Shown: positions 7,857-22,247 of the stretch, piece by piece
How positions within the stretch are numbered: the first letter of the stretch is position 1
Layout: the number at the start of each line of letters is the position of its first letter
Made by a program: the position numbers and the translations under genes
Source of the DNA: Plumapathes pennacea
Lineage: Eukaryota > Cnidaria > Anthozoa > Antipatharia > Myriopathidae
Assembly: GCA_964036295.1 (NCBI GenBank)
Contig: OZ038465.1
Span: forward strand, 22,440,331 to 22,504,330
DNA length: 64,000 nucleotides
Direction: 5' to 3'
Notes under the pieces: model-generated
Databases searched by the model: none
What the model was told of the DNA's origin: nothing
What the model saw: only the letters and a program-made list of their open reading frames with translations

Positions 7857-8003
7857 CCCTAGATGCTCCCCAAAACGCGAGCAGAGATCCAACGAGCCTA
7901 TCGCCAGAGGAAACAACAACAGGAAGGGATAACGAAAGCGCCTAAAAAGACACGGGCTGAAATTCAAAGGCATTTCCGAAAATTTATTATACTGATAAAC
8001 TCG
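7857..8003 (+). pseudogene. Basic-peptide exon remnant (RAEIQR motif)
   Basis: The plus-strand frame from the ATG near 7861 encodes KTRAEIQRAYRQRK, a short linker, then a second KKTRAEIQRHFRK, then a stop. This basic amphipathic motif is one I know from the N-terminal exons of cnidarian DDE-transposase-like proteins, such as the family of the pseudogene at 21.1 kb. Only about 48 codons remain and no flanking exon is visible. Treat as an orphan fragment. Confidence 0.35.
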
Positions 8004-8099
8004 CATTAATGGATTTCTTTTATCTTACAGGCTAAAGTAGTTAATTTCTAACTAAACTGTTTGACCGATATGTGAGACTCGGTGGTTTGAGAGGCAAGT

Positions 8100-9590
<1,491 letters not shown>

Positions 9591-9599
9591 TGTTTGCCA

Positions 9600-10060
9600 C
9601 GCCTTTATTACAAAGTGTTGAGAAGTAATGCAAATACTAAGACATTTTGCTGAGGCGTTGCATTAAATATCTTACTCATAAACTGAATATGTAAAATAAG
9701 GAAACAGACATAGGTATGTCGGATGAAGCGGAAATAGGGAGATTATAAAAACTGAATGATGGCCTGGAAGATCCCGCTACGGACTTGTCAAGGCAAACAG
9801 TAAAATTCAAAGGCCTGTTTTTTAAGATTGTCCCGAATCTGATCTGGTCTTACACGCATGAAAGATGATGCCTAAAAAGTGTTTCGAATCTAAATAGGCA
9901 TTGTGTTTAAGAAATGGTGTCATTCGGCTAGTCCATACGCGCGTTCCAAGTACTGTTCAAACCTCAGGGGTGTCTGTATTCAATGTAATTGTGCGAAGGA
10001 ACAAAGTACACATTTTCAAACAAATCAAATACGAGCGCCAATGAGAGAAGGCCTTTGGCA
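9600..10060. other. Upstream spacer of the helicase gene, no gene seen
   Basis: One more diverged unit of the foldback motif (tatgtcggatgaagcgg, near 9715) occurs here. No coding frame is recognised. If the helicase-recombinase pair is a mobile unit, its left end should fall in or near this stretch. Confidence 0.4.
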
Positions 10061-10062
10061 GG

Positions 10063-10070
10063 TATATAAA
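10063..10070 (+). promoter_or_regulatory. TATA box of the SF3 helicase gene
   Basis: TATATAAA lies about 90 bp upstream of the first predicted splice donor (AAAG|GTAAGC at 10154) and about 220 bp upstream of the chosen start codon. Transcription would start near 10095. The spacing fits a canonical RNA polymerase II core promoter. Confidence 0.6.
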
Positions 10071-10288
10071 CTCTGATAGCATACTTCCCGGCCTCTTTTG
10101 GCACAGACAAGCAGACAGAACGGAGCTCCGTACATGTGTGTGTATTGAGCAAAGGTAAGCCAGCAACCAATGTCTGAAACACGACCGTGAAACACGCCCA
10201 GCCGTCCACGTGTTTGCCTCACATGATCTTGTTTTTAATTTTCTGCGTAGATTGGGCGTTGCCTTCAGACATAATAAATTGGTGGCTT

Positions 10289-13032
10289 ATGGCTTATGCA
10301 AGTCGACCTTGCAGACAGTTAAATAACAGTGCGATTCGCGGAGCTGCCCTCTGTCACATCCCTCCCGCTTTCGATGGACGTTGTTCGATAGTGACGGTAA
10401 AAGGAGTTTGGCGGGTAAAGGGTGGATCTCGCGCAATTGACGAAGCATGGAAACAAATATCTTCCAAAAGATTGGAATGTGACGAATCGATAAGCAAAGT
10501 TCGCGGAGTGGCATTCTACTACTCTGCCGTTTCAACTTTTGAATCTCAAAAGGACTCAAAGGCAAATGAAACAGAAGACCTAGATTCAAGTGAAGACGAA
10601 CAAGAGGAATCACCAAACTCGTCACAAGTGCTGGCTGGAAATTATGGAAAGAAGAAAAAGCTGCACCCAGCAGTAAGCTATTGGATTGCCATCCAGTCAC
10701 CAAATGGTGCGCCAGTGTCGCCTCGTGCGATCCATTCTGCTCTGACAAGATGCGAAATGGAAATATTCCCGCAGCGATCGTGCAAAACCTCTCTGCCAGA
10801 TATTGAAAGATCACAAGAATAGCTTTATTGGCGACTTGGTAGAGACCTCATACCATTCCTGCTACACACAGATCATCCAAAACATCAGTAATTGTGCTGG
10901 TATCGAGAACTACCTAATCGACAAATATCCAGTTGGAACTGACAAAGTTGTCCATCTTCATGTAGTGGACCAACAATTTTGCACCGCCATCTCCGCGGCC
11001 ACCAACGAAATGGCTAAAGCCGGACTACAGCTTCACAAGTTTTGCATCGCCACGGAGCATTCGAATCCTGCAGTGCCCAAATCATACAAGCCCCTTGCAG
11101 GTCCCACCACCATTCTGTGCAACGACATAGAAACGTTGATGAAGGCACTCGGATATCGTTGCCACCGAGGGAACATTTTCAGAAAAATCCCCGAGTCCAC
11201 TTGCACCTTCACATATCGGGGTAGCATGCGATCATTCTTGCACAAGTGCGCCGCAAACGATTCGCTGAAGGATAGAATGGTGCGCCACATGCCCAAACTA
11301 GTACCTATCTTGAGCGAACCCGACTGTGAGGTTCTGCCGACTATCAGCATCAATTATGACTTGATTGAAGTGTCCAATAGTTGGTTTTGGTGTTTCTCCC
11401 AGGGAAAATTTCTCAAAGAGGCAATCGCCAAGGAAATGGTTGGAAAAGTTAGCCCGAGGACGTTTATCAACTACCATCACGATAAACCCCAGGATCCGAA
11501 GTTTTTCAGAGAAATTCTCGAGAATAGCCTGGAAGAGTCGCACATATCTCGATTCTGTGCCGACTTTCTGCGCCTCTTTGCAGTCAACAAGAAAAATCAC
11601 AAGGAGAAAGTCCCTTGCCTAATTGGGGAAAGCGGCAGTGGAAAGACCAGTCTCTTTTTCCCAGTCTTGGCTATCGTCAAGCCGCAAGCGATCGCCAAAG
11701 TAACCAAGCAGAAGTGCTTCAACAAATCAATGATCGGTGCAGACACTCAAGTTATCTTCCTGGACGAAGCCAGCGAAACAACTATGGACATAGATGACTG
11801 GAAGATCTTAACCCAGGGAGGCTTTACAGCCCACGACTCCAAATACGCCAAGTCGAGGGGCTTTATCAACAGGTGTCCCATGCTAATCACCTGCCAAAGG
11901 GAAATGCACTTTGAAGATGAAGATCGCAAAGCCATGGATGCGAGATTGAACAAGTATTTCTTTAAGAGTCTTCCATCACTCAACCAACATGCGACAAAGT
12001 GGCTCAAAACTCATGCAATGGACTGCATCGTGTGGGCTCAAGAAAAGGCGTCTGCCTTGCGAGCGGGGGATAGCGATGATTGCGACCAGGTGTCCGAGTC
12101 CTCGTCAGACGAAATGCACTTTGGCGAAGAAGACGTCGCTGCCATTAAGGAAGGTGTCCGTTATTGCTGGCGCCCAAGAACCAGCCCACGAGCTCTCGAC
12201 AGGCGAAGGAAAGAGTCAAACAGTGGAAACTGAAGGGCAGCAGGAGAGCATCCAGGATGTCTTGGCTGAATGGGAAGAAGATTTTGATCTGGTTCGTTTC
12301 TACACAGAACTATCCAAGCGCCTCGATGCCTTGGGTGGCGAACGAAACTTAAGATGGCAGATCCTTGTAGCCATCAAGGCGAACTTTGAAGGATACCTCC
12401 GAAGGACGCGAGACGATCAACGTATGGGAGTTATGATGGCATGCAGGAACAGAGAGCAACACTTGCTCGACATGGGAGTAGCAGAGGACCTTGTCCAGCG
12501 AATTCCTGACAATCCAATGATGGCATATCCCGCAACTCTTCAACGTGCAGTCGACAGTTGCGTTGCCAAGATTAACACGGCCAGTTATGGACAGAGAGCA
12601 ATGCGTGCCAAACAAATATTCGAAGGTGTCTGGCTGCAGACGAAGGAACACGAACTGGTTCAACTGGTAAAAGATCTGGAAGGCTGCCACGAACTGGACG
12701 TCAAACAGGCCAAGGAGTACTGCCTGGAGGTTGCCAGCGACGCCCTGAGGGGACACCACCTATCTGAAGGCACTGATCCACAGCTTGGCCTTGAAGTTCG
12801 CAGGAGGTTATACCTGGAGAATGGCTGGATTCCCAAGGGTCAGGAGTCCCGCATTACGGATCTGCACACTCCTCCTGACATGGAAGAAGTCCCAAACGAA
12901 CCCAAGCTGCTTCTCACTCCACCAAGCAGCCGGCCCAAACGCCAGCGAAAGAGGAAGAGTGCCACGCAGATGTATACCGCGGGCAAGCAACAGAAAACCA
13001 TGCTCGATTTTTTGTTCAAAAGTCAGAATTAA
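10289..13032 (+). CDS. SF3 helicase (AAA+), NS1/E1-like, spliced
   Basis: Predicted nuclear DNA helicase of about 855 residues. Superfamily 3 helicases unwind DNA at origins in small viruses and mobile elements. Walker A is GESGSGKTS (about 11625-11651), Walker B is QVIFLDEAS (about 11748-11774), followed by a B-prime-type segment with TQGG and DSKYAK, and motif C PMLITCQ. Non-coding exon 1 ends at 10154; intron 10155-10250 (GTAAGC to TGCGTAG). The start chosen is the ATG at 10289, because the only ATG of exon 1 meets an immediate stop. Intron 10673-10799 (GTAAGC to TGCCAG) restores the frame exactly. Near 12150 the frame shifts once more: a 49-nt GT-AG intron (12154-12202) would fix it, but a frameshift is equally possible. 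An acidic stretch precedes intron 2. The C terminus is basic and ends in a PCNA-binding-like motif. Codon use is richer in GC than the flanks. The first 350 residues are unassigned. Confidence 0.8.
12154..12202 (+). other. Putative 49-nt micro-intron or frameshift site
   Basis: The reading frame changes by one base here. Removing GTGTCC...CTCTCGACAG joins codons in phase. An alternative 64-nt removal (12090-12153) also restores frame but has a weak acceptor. A real frameshift cannot be excluded. Confidence 0.35.
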
Positions 13033-13349
13033 GGGATGATTTAAGAGAATCGTGACTTATTATGTGTGTTTGACTAGTATTGCACACGAAAAATAAAAAA
13101 TAAAAAAAATGAAAAAATAAGTTCTAACCCGCTGGTATAATTTATTTATTATTAAAGTTTGCTCTTTGATCCACAATGTTATTACGTGCTATTCCCGTTT
13201 GAAAATTATCTATTTTTTTTTTACCTTTGCCAGTGCCTTTTCCTTTAACTGTATAAGACAGCAGTTGAAGCCATAAAATGACACCAAACAATCACAGTCA
13301 ATAAGAGTACATGCGTGCCGCAGTTGTCCAACTTTCATTTCATAAGAGT
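13033..13349 (+). terminator. 3' flank and poly(A) signal of the helicase gene
   Basis: AATAAA occurs at 13092-13097 in an A-rich run about 60 bp after the stop codon, a plausible polyadenylation signal. The rest up to the CACTA-like insertion is non-coding. Confidence 0.5.
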
Positions 13350-13398
13350 CACTGTGTCAAAAGAGGCGTGCACGGTGCATGACATTTGCCGATACGAA

Positions 13399-13421
13399 CT
13401 CGTATTCTTAAAGAATACGAG
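13399..13421. repeat. 11-bp perfect inverted repeat in the left subterminal region
   Basis: CTCGTATTCTT and its complement are separated by one base. Not shared by the right end of the element. Confidence 0.6.
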
Positions 13422-14711
13422 AGTGTCATTACGTTTCAGTGTTCCGAACATTTAACGTGTCATGGAAATGTCGGCACCGGACACGCTATGATTCGGACTT
13501 TTTCCCTATCACCGAATATCCGGATGTTGACACGTCTTTGATACTTCGCGTGTTTGGCTCCGGGAATGTCATGATATTGAACGACACGCAAAAATTACCT
13601 GGGAATCAAGCACCGGGCATTACACGACGCTTGGCGTGACTGCTAGAGCACGCTGTTTATATTAGCTGAATTTTGTACGTACTGGGAATCGTGTACGCCA
13701 AGAAATTACGCGACACGCCTCGTATCCCGCCACTGAAATTCCACAGTTCTCAAGTAATGAATGTGACGAATTCTTCTGGCTTTTTGCTTTACCTTGCAGA
13801 ATTTATATTACATTACGGCACTATTTTATTTCTGCAATGCATTCAGTTCTATATCGGCCTCCCTCTGCCATGTGTAGTTCAAAGCGAAACACCATGCAAT
13901 ACGTTCAGGTTAATCAGTTTTATTGCAAACAAGTATATCATAGGTCAATACATTTCTGTGCCGTTTTCCTACGGCTTCCCTCCTGTCAGGCAAGTTGTCA
14001 AGATGCTGTTGCCTCTTCGTCTCATAGTATCTTTAAATAGCACCTGAAAACATAAAGCGGGGCAACAGACATGAGACCTATATAACCCTGTACAAATTCC
14101 AGGTTATAGCGTCAGCTGTACAAATACCGCAAGCCGACGTTTATTTTATAATCATGTACTACACATATTCTATACAAAGACGTTATATTTGAGGAAAGAT
14201 GTTTGTAGAACTTACGCATTACAACGCTTTTTGGATAACTGTCATTTTCTTTTGAGAGCTGCTCGTACAGAAAGCCTAACTCTTTTATTGTGAGTGCTGT
14301 CAATACTAAATAGAAAAGACACACGCTGCATGTATGAACGTCAATAAGAAAAGGATATTATGAAGATAATTTTCAGGACTTTTTCATATACATACCCCTC
14401 GCTTTTCGTCCTCCTGTCGGTTATGCAGCATATGAACTTCATCCTAGTAATAACGGAGCAACCACAGATAAGAAAGCATGCTAAAATGCATTAACACGTG
14501 TCTAAAACTTATCAGAGCTTTTCACACCTCTTGTGAGTTTCCTGTTCTCTAATCTCATTATAATTAATACAAATTCCTGTTCCCTCACTACCTTCATTGT
14601 TCGACGGAGTCAGAGTCACGATAGGAATGATTACCTTCAAAGCTTTAGGAACGGGCCCATAGTGAGAGGATTCCTAATGCTGTAATGTGCGGCCATTGCT
14701 CAGTTCAGTTC

Positions 14712-15029
14712 TTATCTGCTTGATTTGGTCCTTGATCTTCGACATTTCTTTTTGGGACTCCTAGCCTTTCCCGCCATTTTCTGAATGTCGTTGTTCTGTC
14801 TCTTCAATAGGTCTGTCAGAGTCTGAGTTTTCCTTCTGTCCAAAAGTGCCTCTAACTCTTGACGATACGACAACATTTCCTTGAATTATCGGCGTCGTAG
14901 TTTCTCTGTTTGATGCCGAGCACGACCATTTGAAGCGGCAGGTACATTTGCGCGCCTAAATCTCGAAGGCCCAGAAGATCCGTTTTTTCGACTACTGTTC
15001 GATCCGAAAAAGGTGCCAGTGGATACCAT
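14712..15029 (-). pseudogene. Basic, coiled-coil-like coding remnant inside the CACTA-like element
   Basis: The minus-strand frame from the ATG at 15029 runs through a serine- and arginine-rich segment, one in-frame TAA (14886-14888), then a heptad-like stretch (LEALLDRRKTQTLTDLLKRQ) and a lysine- and arginine-rich tail to a stop at 14712. Composition looks coding rather than random. It may be a first exon of an element-borne protein. Family not recognised. Confidence 0.3.
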
Positions 15030-15789
15030 TTGAGCTTACAACGTCTGCAAAGAGGTTTTTTATCGCTAACAAAGAAAAATTACAAGGTCCGACCAAGAGT
15101 TACTGACTCAAAGTCCTACAGAGTCCAAAGGGTCGTATGTTAATTGTTTGACGATTATATGTATTGAAAGGAAAAACTTGACAGCTAAGATTGTCCAATC
15201 CAAGAGCGTCACGTTAATCCCTTAAATCTTGCGCCCGCATTTCGGAGTCTAGCGGTCACACTCAAAACCAGGCTGTAAACGGCCGCGCGGGAAACAGTGG
15301 CAGACGCGGGAACCTGCGACCTCGTGGAGAAGGCGGCGATGGGAAAGCAGAGGTTCAGTCGAGAGAATAAGAAAGATGAAAAGAGGCTAATGCGAAATAA
15401 GAGAAAGAAGAGGAAAAGACACTTTCGTAAGGCAAGAACTGAAGAATTAGAATTGATAGGCATACACAAGCAAACAGACTAAATCGTAACTTACATTAAT
15501 TATAACTCAGTATAAAATATCATTAACTCGTTGAAACTGCAGTGTTGTTATTTTCTCTCCAACGAAAGCTGAATGTTCGTGATTGTTAGTAAGAGACCGG
15601 AGTTACTTAGTCGTCAGGCATTTCCGTGCGTATTGTTTTACCGCCCATTAAACACAATAGATCCTGTGTTAGCACGAATAACGCAAAACCAGGTTATACA
15701 ACCTTGCCAAATAGATTTCTTCTCAGGGGGATTGGTGTTAGTTGTAGGGATTTTTTTTCAAACGTTGCACAAAAGCTCTTTGAATCTTG

Positions 15790-16222
15790 CCATGCCTTAA
15801 TTATTGGGTAAAGTTACTAAATGATTTAGCAAATTCTCTACAGTTCTTACATATCAAAGGCAATGTACAGAGGGACATCAAGGCTGATAACATATTGATT
15901 TCATTCCATAACAATAACTACCATGCAATTTTAATTGATTTTGGGAAATGTATCAGAGAATCACACGCGTCTATTAAGAAGCTCTCACTTTAAAATCAAG
16001 AATTGTACAAGAAACATCACCCGCAAAATTGCTCCTGAAATAGTTAATGGAACGCATCAGCTGCCAGTGACATTTACTCCCTTGGACAGATTTTTAGGTG
16101 TGTTGCTGTTAAGATCAGCTCTGAGCACTTGATGACATTAGCTGAGAAATGCATTAAATCAAGAACCTAAACGAAGGCCTTTGATTGCAGAAATTTGCAG
16201 CAAGCTTCAGGATTTAAATTGA
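15790..16222 (+). pseudogene. Protein kinase catalytic-domain fragment, frameshifted
   Basis: Remnant of a eukaryotic protein kinase lobe. A catalytic-loop match reads QRDIKADNIL, so the HRD-type histidine is replaced. A DFG motif follows (ILIDFGK), then APEIVNGTH of the activation segment, SDIYSLGQIF of subdomain IX, and a C-lobe helix ending EKCIKSR. The pieces lie in different frames with internal stops, so no kinase can be made. It sits inside the CACTA-like element and was probably captured from a host gene; the ATP-binding lobe is absent. Confidence 0.75.
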
Positions 16223-16229
16223 CACAATG

Positions 16230-17260
16230 GCACCCGCATTTTGGCAACTACAAAAATATTAACTTTTACGAAAGGTGTTTAACTATGCACGTGCTTTATG
16301 TTTTCATATGATCAATGCTCTTTCAATCGCCTGCTGGTCACGACTTCATTTCCTCCAGTTTTTTCTTATTTATTTTGTGGATTTCAGATTTATTTAGTGA
16401 TAAATGAGAGGAAAGCTCTTGTGTTGTCAAGATGTCCCATCTTTGGGCAACAGACTGTCAAGATGTCTCATCTTTAGGCAGTTAGTGGAATTCTCATTTA
16501 TCAATAAGCATATTAACATATGACGAGTTAAAAATGCGTTGTGATGCTGCAGTACTGTGAGAGGAAAGCTTTCTTCGGTCAGTTAGTGAAATCCTCATTC
16601 ACATGTAGCAATCCAGCTAATCCTTGGTCGCATAAAATACATCTTCAATTTGAAATTAAAAAATATACTTCAAAATATTTTGGATGCACCGAGCAGCTTC
16701 ATGAAGCACTAGCATAGTTAACTGTCCAAAACTAAAACAAATAATTATTTAGATTTATTATAGTTGATCTTGTAATATCCAGAATCAGTTATGGTGAACA
16801 TGTAGCACCAAAATTACAGATATACCACATGTGGGAGGCCTTTGTCTCTCACATCTGTTTGCCTGTGGCTTCATGATTCGTTCATGATCGTTTTCCCTCT
16901 CCTTGTCTTTCCGTTCGTAGCCTTCTCCCCCGTGGGAGTTGCAACTAAATGACATTCAAGGAAATATTAGGATGTATTCAAATTTTGTATACATAAATAA
17001 TTGCGCTCGCCTTGATCTCCCGTGCTGCCATGCGGCGCAAAACTGCAATTATCGCAATGGCGTCAGGAGAGTCTTTAGACTTCTACTTTACTGTTTCTAT
17101 CAAGTGTCAGTTTAATCCAACTGAAAACAATCAGGAAACATGGAAATAACTAAATTTACCACTTGATACACGACTAAATCGGTCTCAAAAAATATTTAAA
17201 CAGCCCCCTGACTTTGCCTAAACATTGAAAATTTCAAACTCAAGTTTACATTCTCCTTGG
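16230..17260. other. Interior of the CACTA-like element, no gene seen
   Basis: AT-rich, with a short tandem repeat of tgtcaagatgtc-type units near 16420-16480 and no supported coding frame. Confidence 0.4.
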
Positions 17261-17689
17261 CGTGAAGATTTACTGACATAAAGACGGACGTGCTTGTCAC
17301 AAAGTACTCGTCGTACGACACCAGATAACACGCCGGACACTTCGTGTAACAAAGTGGCATGAATCAGGCTCTTTGTGACACGCCACATGCGTAGACACCT
17401 CGCGTTCCCATTCCAAACACGCTAAGTAACTCGAGTATCAGGTTGCTCGACATGGGACTACACGCAACGTGCGAGTGTTGGGATACGTGACACTAACAGA
17501 CACTCCGTGTAGGGATGTGTCGTGAACTGGATTCTAAGTGACACTCCACGTGATAAGACACGCGGCATTCTCGTCCTTGACGCGCAGCGTGCAAACATAA
17601 TATCAATGACATGGATATTCCCGTGTACGCCGCTTTTGACACAGTGAGTTCATTCCTGTTGCCATGAAATCGACGCTCTTGCTGTCATA

Positions 17690-19720
17690 TTATGTGCTGG
17701 CTGTTTGTCTCTGTCGGAAACACGCAGACACGGCTCTCTTTTTAATCGAGTCAGCAGTTCTCCCCTGTTGAAAAATCAACTCCGGGTCCTCTAGAATGCA
17801 TTTCCATCTTCCGAACCCATGCTTTACGAGACCCTTCTTCAGGTATTTGTCTTCATAACTAGTGAAACGCAAACTTCTCTTGCGGTGACAAGTCGAGTCG
17901 GCTTGTGACAAGTTTGTTGGTCTTTTGTGATCAGTGTCAATTTTGTTATTACCAGTGCGGTCATTATTATTGTGGTCAATATTATTACCATGGTCACCAT
18001 TATCATTGTGGTCATTATTATTACCGTGATCACCATTGTCATTATGGTCATTATTATTACCGTGGTCACCATTGTCATTATGGTCATTATTGTTATCATG
18101 GTCATCATTATCATTATGGTCATTAGTCTCATTATTGTTATTACCTTTGTTGCTACTGTCATTATCGCGATCACCACTGTCGTTATCATCCACTTCGTCA
18201 TCACCACGGCCATCATCATCATCGTCGTCGTCAACACTGTCAGTGCTACTTGCTGGGTGATCACTATCACTGTCACTGGCCCTGCTCTCATGATTGCCCA
18301 CGTCGTTGTGCAAGTCCAAACACTTTTGCACCTCTCGCCCTGCTCTACATACCTCCTCCCCTCGCAGTTTTTGCATGCACGCTTGGGCTCTCGTAGCTAC
18401 GTCTCTCGACCTTCGCTTCTGATAGTGTAGTTTTGCGACATGAGAGCTGTGCTTTTGGTCTTCGCTGATCGCCTGTTGTTCGTTTGCGTCCAATCGACTG
18501 GCACTTTCCGTCTCGATGATTTGCCTGTAACGAGTCGGGTGAATATGCTTGCCTATAGCTTCAAACACTTGCTTTGACAACAGGTCGCAAAGCTTGCTGT
18601 ACTGCGTACCGTTGCGCGTCACCAAAAGATAATCGCACTTGGGTTTCAGCATTGGTCTCCCGTGTTGTTGGTACTGTTCGATCAACTCTAGATCGGCTGG
18701 CTCCAAGAGGAGAGAGTCGAACGAATATGTTTGTGCGGTCTTAAACATCTTCTGGTCTATGAAACCTCCATTATTTCTAGCCTTCTCTAGCATCTCGAGA
18801 GTCAAGTGCTGGTAAGTCATCGGACGAGAACCCTTCACTTTCACAAATAGGTACGTGGCCAAGAAGCGTGTCGCAAATGAAAGGTCGGTCGGAGAGACGC
18901 TCCTCGGTTCAGTTTTACAACGGTCCAGTACTGAAGTCAGTCGTGGCAGATGATAGGGTATTACCTTTGCCAGGTCTTCCAGTGATGCCCAGCAGCCCTT
19001 GGCTTCCAGATTCTCGATGTCAAGATCCCTAGCCCACTTGATTTTCCTCTTTTTGGCGATAGTCTTTCGCGCCCGCTTTATGTACACTTCGGTCATGGCA
19101 AAACTGCTGATGACGTTCGTTGACAGACCACTGACCTTCCGGTAATCCATAAGTTCGGACATGGCTTTGAGATACGTCAGTTGTGCGGAGTAGCCTATCT
19201 TTAGCTCGTCCTGCATGGCGTCGACGAATCTACACACGAGAGCAGGAGAACCAAGGCAAAAGTCGATGGTCTCTGCCGTCAATTCGTCGTCGTCATCTGC
19301 ACAGCAAAATCTCAGATATCGCAAAACTCTGTTTGCAGTTTGTTGTGCGTGCTTTAGGGGCTTTCCTCCACCAGTCCTACCACAAAGCCACTTCACAAAA
19401 TGTTCCCCTGCGATTGTAGAACAGAAATTTGATGGTGAATAGAACTCTTGCAGGCCAGTCGAGGACTCTGTTTGAAGTTCAGCACACTGCGTTCTTTTCC
19501 TCAACAATTTTGAGGGTTTCGTATCAAAGTAACTGTACCAGGAATGTCTGCTGCGTACATGTTTTCTGCAACCTCTGCGCGATAAAAATCCGTCGTGATC
19601 ACAGTGTGGCACAGGGCACTGGAACACACCATCTTCGTCTTCTTCCAAGTGGAGTCTCCGTTTGCAGTCTCTTGCGCCTTCTACATTAGCCCAGTTGATT
19701 TTTCTCTTCACTTTAGACAT
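17690..19720 (-). CDS. Tyrosine recombinase with C2H2 finger and C-terminal Myb domain
   Basis: Uninterrupted 676-residue protein predicted to cut and rejoin DNA as a site-specific tyrosine recombinase in the nucleus. The start is the ATG at 19720. A C2H2 finger spans residues 36-60 (C-x4-C-x13-H-x4-H). A helical core-binding-like region follows (about 100-250). The catalytic set is in order: Arg300 (KGSRPMTYQHL), HPTR at 395-398, His425 and the nucleophile Tyr434 (HSSHVAKLHY). The spacing matches the family: 27 residues from Arg to His and 9 from His to Tyr. Residues 490-590 are acidic and contain a 12-residue Asp/Asn/His repeat coded by a 36-bp minisatellite. Residues 618-668 form a single Myb/SANT domain. 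It converges on the SF3 helicase gene. Crypton elements also encode such enzymes, but with a different DNA-binding tail. No break is visible, so it may be active. Confidence 0.85.
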   Translation of the reverse strand: MSKVKRKINWANVEGARDCKRRLHLEEDEDGVFQCPVPHCDHDGFLSRRGCRKHVRSRHSWYSYFDTKPSKLLRKRTQCAELQTESSTGLQEFYSPSNFCSTIAGEHFVKWLCGRTGGGKPLKHAQQTANRVLRYLRFCCADDDDELTAETIDFCLGSPALVCRFVDAMQDELKIGYSAQLTYLKAMSELMDYRKVSGLSTNVISSFAMTEVYIKRARKTIAKKRKIKWARDLDIENLEAKGCWASLEDLAKVIPYHLPRLTSVLDRCKTEPRSVSPTDLSFATRFLATYLFVKVKGSRPMTYQHLTLEMLEKARNNGGFIDQKMFKTAQTYSFDSLLLEPADLELIEQYQQHGRPMLKPKCDYLLVTRNGTQYSKLCDLLSKQVFEAIGKHIHPTRYRQIIETESASRLDANEQQAISEDQKHSSHVAKLHYQKRRSRDVATRAQACMQKLRGEEVCRAGREVQKCLDLHNDVGNHESRASDSDSDHPASSTDSVDDDDDDDGRGDDEVDDNDSGDRDNDSSNKGNNNNETNDHNDNDDHDNNNDHNDNGDHGNNNDHNDNGDHGNNNDHNDNGDHGNNIDHNNNDRTGNNKIDTDHKRPTNLSQADSTCHRKRSLRFTSYEDKYLKKGLVKHGFGRWKCILEDPELIFQQGRTADSIKKRAVSACFRQRQTAST
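17950..18140 (-). repeat. 36-bp coding minisatellite in the recombinase gene
   Basis: About three and a half in-frame copies encode NDHNDNGDHGNN-type units in the linker between the catalytic and Myb domains. Confidence 0.8.
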
Positions 19721-19810
19721 CACTCTTGCAGACCAACTTGGAACATAATGATCCTAATGCTGCTTCACTCCGTTAAATAGCTACTAGCACATAATCATTT
19801 CATTTATAAC

Positions 19811-20075
19811 CTGACCAATAAACAACCTCAGTGTCGAACAAGTCTGAACAAGCAAGCAAAACCTTTGTGTCAAAGAGTCCCAGACGGCCGGACACGAGTG
19901 ATCTTGCCTTATTCTTGCCCGAACAAGAACCTACACTGCCTCGCACACTATTGATTCAACTATAAACTGACCAATAAAGAACGTCAGTGTCGAACAAGTC
20001 TGAACAAGTGAGCAAAACCTTTGTGTTAAAGAATCCCAGGTGACCAGGCACGAGTGATCTTGTCTGGACAAGAAA
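19811..20075. repeat. 156-bp tandem duplication upstream of the recombinase gene
   Basis: Units start at 19811 and 19967 (both ctgaccaataaa) and share gtgtcgaacaagtctgaac and cacgagtgatcttg. They lie 90-350 bp upstream of the recombinase start and could hold its promoter or a recombinase-binding site; nothing in the sequence decides this. Confidence 0.7.
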
Positions 20076-20079
20076 GTTT

Positions 20080-20560
20080 CAAAACTTCATACACTGTCTG
20101 AAACCGCGCAGAATAGCATTCATCAATCGGATGTTCAATAAAGTTGGCTTTCTCTGAGTTTTTGCAACTGAGGGATTTCACGAAGGACCGACCACACGTT
20201 GACTATGTGGCCATAAATAATTGGCGCATAGGCAACCATATCCGCTATATCCGTCTTATCCATCTTAACCGCTATGTAGCCTAAGAAAGTGAAGCGAAGT
20301 AGTGACCAGCTCTTAATTGATAAAGCAATGAAACTCTAAGAGGCTGTAATCACTGCTCTAATTCACTTTCACTGACTATTTATACTTTAGACACACAGCT
20401 TCAGTGAAAGTAAGTTTAAACGTTCTGAATCTCTGCCTAATAAAGTATCTATCTGCAAGTGTAAAGCAATAGTTTTATTGTGCGAGCAACAAGAACTACC
20501 CAGACTTACCGAAGTTCTATCCGAGACACATCAGAGACGATGGACCGATTAGTTCCGAAA
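20080..20560. other. No gene recognised
   Basis: Non-coding. Near 20240-20275 a short run (atatccgct...tccgtcttatccatc) resembles the unit of the 8.1-9.6 kb foldback arms. Confidence 0.4.
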
Positions 20561-20565
20561 CTCTT

Positions 20566-20905
20566 TGCCGGACTGTTTCGGGCCTCGAATCGGAACACAC
20601 AATCGGAACAAATCGTTCGTGGATCGTAATGTTCCGCAACATTAAAAATCATCGGGACCGTTTCGGTCCTCGGATCGGAACACCCAAATCGGAACAAATC
20701 GTTCGTGGATCGCAATGTTCCGAAACATGAAAAATCATCGGGACCGTTTCGGTCCTCGGATCGGAACATGAAAATCGGAACAAATCGTTTGTGGATCGCA
20801 ATGTTCCGAATAATGGAAAATCATCGGGACCGTTTCGGTCCTCGGATCGGAACACATAATCGGAACAAATCGGACACGGATCGGGACACATTAGTCCTAT
20901 GTGTT
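20566..20905. repeat. 86-bp satellite-like tandem repeat, four copies
   Basis: Units recur at 20651, 20737 and 20823, with a more diverged first unit near 20566. Each contains the palindrome GGACCGTTTCGGTCC and several cggaac/gttccg words. It precedes the DDE-type pseudogene. Confidence 0.85.
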
Positions 20906-21134
20906 CCGAAATATGAAAACTGGTCAGGATCACTGTGTTCCTCTTTGAAAAGGACCACAGTGTTCCCGATGCTTCATTGCAATCGGTCCAAATCGGACAG
21001 TATTTGTTCCGATAATAAAGAAAATTGTCGGAAACGTAACAAGAGAATATAGAGAAAGAAAAAAGCAAATAGATAGGAAAGGATATGAAGAAAATGAAAG
21101 AGAGCGGAAGCGGCGTGCATACATTCCAACGTCC

Positions 21135-22247
21135 TTGTTAGACGTAAAGGTGCAGGCACGTCTTCCGAATTTGCATGCAATAGTCCAGATGGACTTTGTC
21201 GAAAACTACACCTGCCAGTCCAACGGGGAGGTACAGCCGGCCTACTGGAATGCGTCAATGATAACGCTTCATCCATGCGTTGCCTACTTAAAGTCCACTG
21301 AGGGTGAGTTAAACCACTGTAGCAGAGCTTTTGTCTCAGATGAGCTTGGTCACAACTCTGCTACCGTATTTGCGATTATCAAGAGGCTGATGTCTGAAAT
21401 GAAGGAAACATCGCCAGGCCTTCAGCACGTACACTACTACACCGACAGCCCAACCTCCCAGTACCGCAACAAAGCAATGTTTCACATCGTTAGCCAGCTT
21501 GAAAAGCTTTTTGGTGTCACTGCATCCTGGAACTTCTTCGAAGCAGGTCATGGTAAAGGTCATTGTGATGGCGTTGGAGGGTCGGTGAAGCGCATGGCCG
21601 ACGAGGCTGTGCGATAACATAAGGCAGTCATTCAAGATGCTGCCGACTTCTTTGCATGGGCAAAATCTGGGCACATGGCAAAAAGTTCAGTTTCGTTCTA
21701 CTTTGTCCCAAAGCAAAACTGCCAGGCTGCCAACCAAGAAATACAGCGTTTCAGGAAAATCAAACCTGCTCCTGGGACACTGAAGCTTCACGCAGTTGCG
21801 GGAGATCCACAAGAGCCGGGAAAAATTATTGCAAGAGAAACCTCGTGTCATTGCGAACAGTGCTTTAACGGTGAATCATTTAACCGCGATTAACCATGCA
21901 AGTGGTCAACGCATATTCTGAAGGATCCCCAAATCCCAGGTGTGATTATACCAGCGACAGGTGACTGGATTGCCGCAGTTTACGACGATAAGTGTTACGT
22001 GGGCGAAGTCCTTGAAGTTGACAAAACTGACGGCGACGCCAACGTATCTTTTATGCATCCTTCTTCAAAAAATGTAGCCATGTTGAAGAAACCGAACCAA
22101 CCAGACGAGTTGTGGGTCATGTTTGGTTCGATACTTGCCATATTTGAGCCTCCATACCCCCACGGAAAAACGCACAGGCAGTTCAAGTTAAACAGTGATA
22201 TTGTGGACAACAATGAACAACTCTACACAAAATGGCTGGACCAGTAG
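21135..22247 (+). pseudogene. DDE-type transposase-like protein, C-terminal half, two stops
   Basis: One frame runs through 21135-22247 with only two in-frame TAA codons (21615-21617 and 21891-21893). It has an RNase H-like arrangement of acidic residues: QMDFVENYTC, YYTDSPTSQYRN and FFEAGHGKGHCDG. A lysine-rich linker follows, then a CHCEQC motif. After the second stop comes an SH3/Tudor-like tail (GDWIAAVYDDKCYVGEVL). This family is widespread in cnidarians in my recollection, and I take it to be a transposase, although the superfamily is not certain. The N-terminal DNA-binding part is not found upstream. Two nonsense mutations and no other visible damage suggest fairly recent decay. Confidence 0.7.

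Follow-up and report, generated by a model that had tools for sequence, protein, structure and literature searches.

A multicopy two-gene element of Plumapathes pennacea that joins an SF3 helicase to a tyrosine recombinase, a candidate integrative replicon

The element, its ends and its two genes

We analyzed a stretch of 64,000 nucleotides of the Plumapathes pennacea genome (the window; contig OZ038465.1, positions 22,440,331 to 22,504,330 of the forward strand), where an earlier note had described two convergent genes, one for a superfamily 3 (SF3) helicase and the other for a tyrosine recombinase, and had proposed that they form a circular, self-replicating transposon. In our labels, C for contigs and L for loci, the window is C4:22440331-22504330; the genome comprises 290 Mb and its sequence 24 contigs. 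Results showed that both genes indeed face each other and that they lie within a mobile two-gene unit with defined ends, a member of a multicopy family with sharp ends and about 9,000 letters per element. The window copy is composed as follows.

7970 to 21043, plus strand: whole element, lineage A copy, with left and right ends common to copies that have differing flanks
7970 to 7996, plus strand: left terminal site, NCATTTCCGAAAATTT..., predicted recombinase arm, common to C2 and other left ends
10289 to 13032, plus strand: SF3 helicase gene of lineage A, frame broken in this copy, start set by the relatives P0121 and P0122
13350 to 17646, no strand given: nested CACTA-like insertion, foreign to the element, with an AGT duplication on both sides
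17690 to 19720, minus strand: tyrosine recombinase gene, 676 amino acids, TRF-like Myb domain at the C terminus, frame open from the ATG
19784 to 20065, no strand given: two direct repeats of 126 bp, lying upstream of the recombinase
20570 to 20943, no strand given: right-end repeats spaced by about 86 bp, which stay constant with the recombinase and are candidates for its accessory sites
21014 to 21043, plus strand: right terminal site, ...GTCGGAAACGTAACAAG, predicted recombinase arm and crossover, as judged from the common right end, a 146-bp query and the joined-end test

The unit is larger than the 10063 to 19723 first assigned to it, its ends lying at 7970 and 21043, and the window copy measures about 8.8 kb after subtraction of the nested 4.3-kb insertion. 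The 3-bp sequence AAG is present on both sides (7967-7969 and 21041-21043). The earlier note had suggested aligning several loci to find common ends, and these were found, NCATTTCC on the left and GTAACAAG on the right. The right end was exact in 10 of the 14 aligned loci and one base off in 3; the last one is an old diverged copy, 75% identical, that terminates at the same place (the C3 locus entered this alignment twice, as L008 and L045). Beyond the right end there were no stable syntenic neighbours, as the flanks are mostly unrelated among the 14 loci and similar in three pairs only (L039 and L040 resemble each other, as do L048 and L054, and L042 and L051 have a common flank). The 146-bp right-end query had 19 matches in the genome. 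On the left, a triplet precedes NCATTTCC, being AAG in 13 and TAG in 3 of 16 rows, several of which share a flank: 11 rows are of lineage A type, 9 of them with nearly identical flank, and 5 are of lineage B. The word CATTTCC also stands at the end of the otherwise unrelated left module of lineage B.

Two further observations concern the ends. Left ends with a lineage A-type array, about 90% identical in DNA, are found at C6:20.28-22.69 Mb and C4:14.35 Mb (L018-L020, L023-L032), where neither the helicase DNA search nor the recombinase search had a match; the nine left ends compared have almost identical flanks and seem to have been duplicated from a single insertion, which may be a non-autonomous derivative. 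Across the right end of the window copy (20949-22247, plus strand) run broken frames resembling a mobile-element protein, the first piece having no convincing Pfam match.

When the two ends of the window copy are joined, AATTGTCGGAAACG and CATTTCCGAAAATT, inverted at 12 of 14 positions, flank an 8-bp spacer that contains AAG. This score was matched by 4 of 20000 shuffles and by 1 of 20000 random pairs; lineage B keeps only the CATTTCC core of the arm. Typical tyrosine recombinase sites have arms of 11-13 bp and spacers of 6-8 bp, according to PMC3212892. The recombinase-type core site formed at the joined ends lends support to a putative circular form and its proposed integration.

The earlier note had called both genes preserved, which holds for the recombinase, open for 676 amino acids, and not for the helicase, whose frame is split over three reading frames in the window by a 20-bp deletion near 10.80 kb and a 1-bp insertion near 12.15 kb, both relative to sister copies. 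The two genes are GC-richer than their surroundings, as was claimed: the helicase has a GC content of 0.489 and the recombinase 0.467, compared with 0.397 for the window outside the element, where none of 196 two-kb windows is as high as the helicase and 6 of 196 reach the recombinase value.

The helicase carries an SF3 core with Walker A and Walker B motifs, and its top fold match is the SaPI5 primase-helicase, the fold being common to viral initiators. We take the fold-matched SF3 helicases of known function to be replication initiators or primase-helicases. No HUH motif was read in the N-terminal region. A helicase DNA query matched 4 places in the genome. In the C8 copy of lineage B, a likely 136-bp GT-AG intron lies immediately before the Walker A motif (L056:5605-5740) and is not present in lineage A or in P0121 and P0122; a candidate GT-AG intron near 10.67 kb of the lineage A gene was dropped, since both relatives read through there.

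The recombinase has all the catalytic residues of its class (R, HxxR, H and Y), invariant in 15 sequences, and its fold was recognised by VIA-align; Foldseek against PDB returned no match for the model at E <= 0.001, and absence of a family from these fold lists does not exclude it. Among solved structures, the C-terminal Myb domain is closest to the telomere-binding TRF1 and TRF2, and the N terminus is presumably zinc-finger-like, a label given on reading the sequence. The protein search of the genome gave 67 match pieces; 6 of these, counting the window, are near full length and without stop. At least one copy combines an open recombinase frame with a helicase frame that is open save for one likely 136-bp intron; with both frames open in this way, the family may have moved recently. 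We also noticed a sister recombinase gene split by about 8 kb of other sequence holding further large open frames (C2:17.97-17.98 Mb; L005, L006) and, beside the C3 copy (L008:5814-9984), large frames that by eye resemble a Helitron replicase-helicase.

The insertion between the genes has the CACTG ends and the 3-bp target duplication (AGT) of a CACTA element (CACTR ends, 3-bp duplication), and is 4297 bp long with the inverted ends CACTGTGTCAAAAG and CTTTTGACACAGTG. The C2 and C3 copies do not have it and keep a single AGT at that place, an empty site. The stop codons of the two genes are thus 4657 bp apart with the insertion and about 360 bp without, the distance that the earlier note had calculated.

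The recombinase half and its helicase partners

We looked at which genes adjoin the recombinase elsewhere in the genome. A convergent SF3 helicase was found beside it in 14 of 18 copies, always in the same convergent orientation (14/14), so that in this genome the two genes are not independent of each other. Neither of the refuting results named in the earlier note, independent occurrence in other genomes or synteny with stable host genes on both sides, appeared. The remaining 4 copies were not testable: L048 has 638 bp beyond the gene, with no match, L053 and L055 have less than 400 bp, and in L051 the gene is interrupted. The 18 copies correspond to 20 loci, as two copies are each split over two loci, and further weak pieces lie outside this set.

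The helicases beside the recombinase belong to four lineages, A (3 copies), B (5), C (3) and D (3). The DNA identity of the window to most recombinase copies ends within the spacer between the genes; the end points in different copies are 17646, 17656, 17657, 17676 or 17712. Translated searches revealed that the copies diverging in the spacer still have a convergent SF3 helicase, of another lineage. Two lineage C copies gave weak direct matches (E about 1e-5), but they are 92-95% identical in DNA to the C copy with a strong match. Between lineages, helicase-side DNA is unalignable except for short or weak pieces. B-C and C-D share 68-72% identity across 195-295 bp, A-D align over 28-29 bp, and B-D reach 88-91% across some 190-206 bp, this last piece being located in the spacer. 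The top translated helicase pieces are 41-64% identical between lineages. Recombinase and right-end DNA, on the other hand, is 96.0-99.6% identical in every pair among 11 copies, and here one D copy has 98.6-99.1% identity with the B copies and less, 97.5%, with the other D copy. These comparisons show that the halves have been exchanged recently, one recombinase half being joined to at least four helicase lineages. Near-identical recombinase halves on very different helicase halves suggest a self-copying circle that would insert through its own recombinase.

The same data can be read as two separate mobile elements, a recombinase-only transposon inserting repeatedly just downstream of unrelated helicase genes, as the recombinase half does adjoin four helicase lineages; this is hardly credible, because that half has no fixed left end (identity stops at five different positions), B and D have an extra 190-200 bp of spacer in common, the terminal sites and AAG sit at the outer ends of the whole unit, and orientation never varies among the testable copies.

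Outside this genome, recombinase and helicase relatives occur on contigs of equal size in two cases, P0004 with P0121 (15684) and P0027 with P0134 (81048), in a comparison of the listed recombinase rows (120) with two helicase lists (145 distinct sizes), each list giving its best 120 rows and the longest contig per cluster. The listed protein relatives that carry an organism name come from Oculina, Acropora, Montipora, Nematostella, Actinostola, Desmophyllum and Porites, which we take to be all hexacorals.

A repeat array beside the helicase

Upstream of the helicase, the window copy carries units spaced by about 70 bp, in two inverted arrays about a (TA)n tract.

8245 to 9753, no strand given: entire array region, weaker outer units (8245-8508 and 9315-9753) included
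8509 to 8723, plus strand: left inner array, three units about 70 bp apart with a CGGATGGAG(C/T)GGA core, predicted part of an origin
8830 to 8989, no strand given: (TA)n tract around which the arrays are inverted, a predicted unwinding element
9017 to 9296, minus strand: right inner array, inverted, with four units spaced by about 70 bp, predicted part of an origin

The lineage B element on C8 (4718058-4727545, about 9.5 kb) has the identical layout upstream of its helicase, with units of a different sequence; the comparison covers A and B, as no other left module was seen whole. In both lineages CGGA recurs at 9-bp steps, with two occurrences per unit in A and three in B. The doublet CGGA-N5-CGGA occurs 7 times in the window, compared with 0.65 expected, 6 of the 7 being inside the array region, and 24 times in L056, compared with 0.12 expected. 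The triple-CGGA pattern has 48 matches in the genome, 40 of which fall within the left modules of lineage B (five copies); since a reversed control pattern gave 377 matches, it is this placement that is informative and not the count. One inverted pair of triple-CGGA patterns, 1.3 kb apart, lies outside the known copies (C1:5980158 and C1:5981442) and may represent the array of yet another helicase lineage.

Two other readings of the array were considered. A foldback transposon was rejected, since lineage B has the same layout in the same place with different units, and a role as accessory sites of the recombinase is unlikely, as the array differs between A and B on recombinase halves about 98% identical. 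Judging from the two modules, it is the helicase that the array accompanies, rather than the recombinase, as expected of an origin and its initiator, and this association backs the proposed amplification of a circle. Inverted, repeated short words beside an AT tract are also likened to the origins of T-antigen and E1.

Possible ways of life of the element

Taken together, the ends, the exchanged halves and the array make it probable that the unit is an integrative replicon of an animal genome that consists of two genes, none of them for a capsid or a polymerase, and that would initiate its own replication and insert through its recombinase. We propose that the recombinase would excise the element as a DNA circle, that the SF3 helicase would fire replication of this circle at the array beside its own gene, with the array as origin, the helicase as its initiator and host polymerases doing the synthesis, and that the recombinase would reinsert the circle, its recombination partner, at AAG triplets. 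The terminal CATTTCC and CGGAAACGTAACAAG would be the recombinase arms, with crossover at AAG, and the right-end repeats, which stay constant with the recombinase, its accessory sites. The halves would be swapped by recombination within the short spacer between the stop codons. Of the earlier proposal, we have observed a mobile unit of two genes together with its ends, and circle, amplification and integration are what we infer.

Several results weigh against this reading. The lineage A helicase genes are broken in 3 of 3 copies, and a helicase fragment at C3:6.83 Mb, 88% identical, has no recombinase within the 30 kb examined. The array was not seen in lineage C, where the copy read ends short, nor in 1.5 kb near a lineage D copy (C11:8873200-8874700). 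No empty site of the element was found, the relatives of one left flank (L057, L062) being without the right flank, which in that comparison was only 52 bases long and largely GA repeat. Co-location in other species, finally, is read solely from two equal contig sizes.

An unlikely alternative is a Crypton-like recombinase transposon that does not replicate itself, in which the helicase would assist strand separation or repair and the array would bind the helicase or control transcription. By its catalytic residues and recombinase fold, the element does belong to the tyrosine recombinase DNA transposons, Cryptons in the wide sense. Like Cryptons (CryptonA of animals), the element is a DNA element with a tyrosine recombinase and without reverse transcriptase. 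To excise and insert the element, the recombinase would need no partner, which is also the proposal for Cryptons, for which a circular intermediate is proposed and, in animals, no terminal repeats are reported (PMC3212892); the broken helicases of some copies fit as well. The present element differs by its SF3 helicase, its origin-like array and its defined ends at AAG, and none of 42 recombinases matched GCR1_C or DUF3504 (Pfam, E <= 0.1). The element does not show the tested features of Cryptons in the sense described, although it likely shares their recombinase reaction. Against a mere accessory role stand the SF3 helicases of the same fold and of known function, presumably replication initiators or primase-helicases, and the inverted repeats about an AT tract, which change with the helicase and suit an origin.

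More improbable still is a decayed or reduced DNA virus, that is, a replicon of small-virus or polinton-like type that retained helicase and recombinase after the loss of its capsid genes. The helicase fold is common to viral initiators, and polinton-like viruses and virophages can combine a tyrosine recombinase and an SF3 helicase in one element (PMC4642659, PMC12220804). Those elements measure 14-40 kb and the present one about 9 kb. In the lineage A and B copies seen whole, no capsid, polymerase or reverse transcriptase frame was found, and lineages A and B have two genes only, the other frames of at least 150 amino acids being just low-complexity or antisense. Furthermore, the layout is common to four helicase lineages, so any loss would be old, and pattern scans of IMG/VR with the two alignments matched 32 and 23 stretches, none of them confirmed as a relative.

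The papillomavirus, polyomavirus and parvovirus replicons (E1, large T, NS1/Rep) have the same initiator fold and short repeated words, inverted, beside an AT tract; the present element differs from them in having no capsid, a tyrosine recombinase for movement and no HUH motif that could be read. SaPI-type elements combine an initiator helicase and a tyrosine integrase, and they excise and replicate. Bacterial integrative satellites and plasmids of the SaPI5 type provide the best fold match of our helicase, but here the host is an animal, packaging genes were not seen and the recombinase has a Myb domain. Helitrons also carry a helicase, of another type and joined to an HUH nuclease, and DIRS elements share the tyrosine recombinase but have a reverse transcriptase; neither the nuclease nor the reverse transcriptase is present in the A and B copies.

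In the open-access literature, a scope that excludes subscription papers and repeat databases, we found no comparable animal element. Eukaryotic transposons are classified by their mobilising enzyme, and should the helicase prove not to replicate the element, the cautious classification would be a variant of recombinase transposons. If it does, an element that replicates by its own initiator helicase and origin and integrates by its recombinase, with neither polymerase nor capsid, would have a plasmid-like way of life and would link the replicons of small DNA viruses to transposons. We lean slightly towards the broader view that animal genomes host integrative plasmids, virus-free, with an origin of small-DNA-virus type and an SF3 initiator, mobilised by a tyrosine recombinase, whose replication and integration halves reassort like the cassettes of phages and plasmids. 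If this is true, new pairs of origin and initiator, in effect incompatibility groups, would be repeatedly coupled to the same recombinase, and the swapped halves would offer natural pairs of helicase and array for studying how an SF3 initiator chooses its origin.
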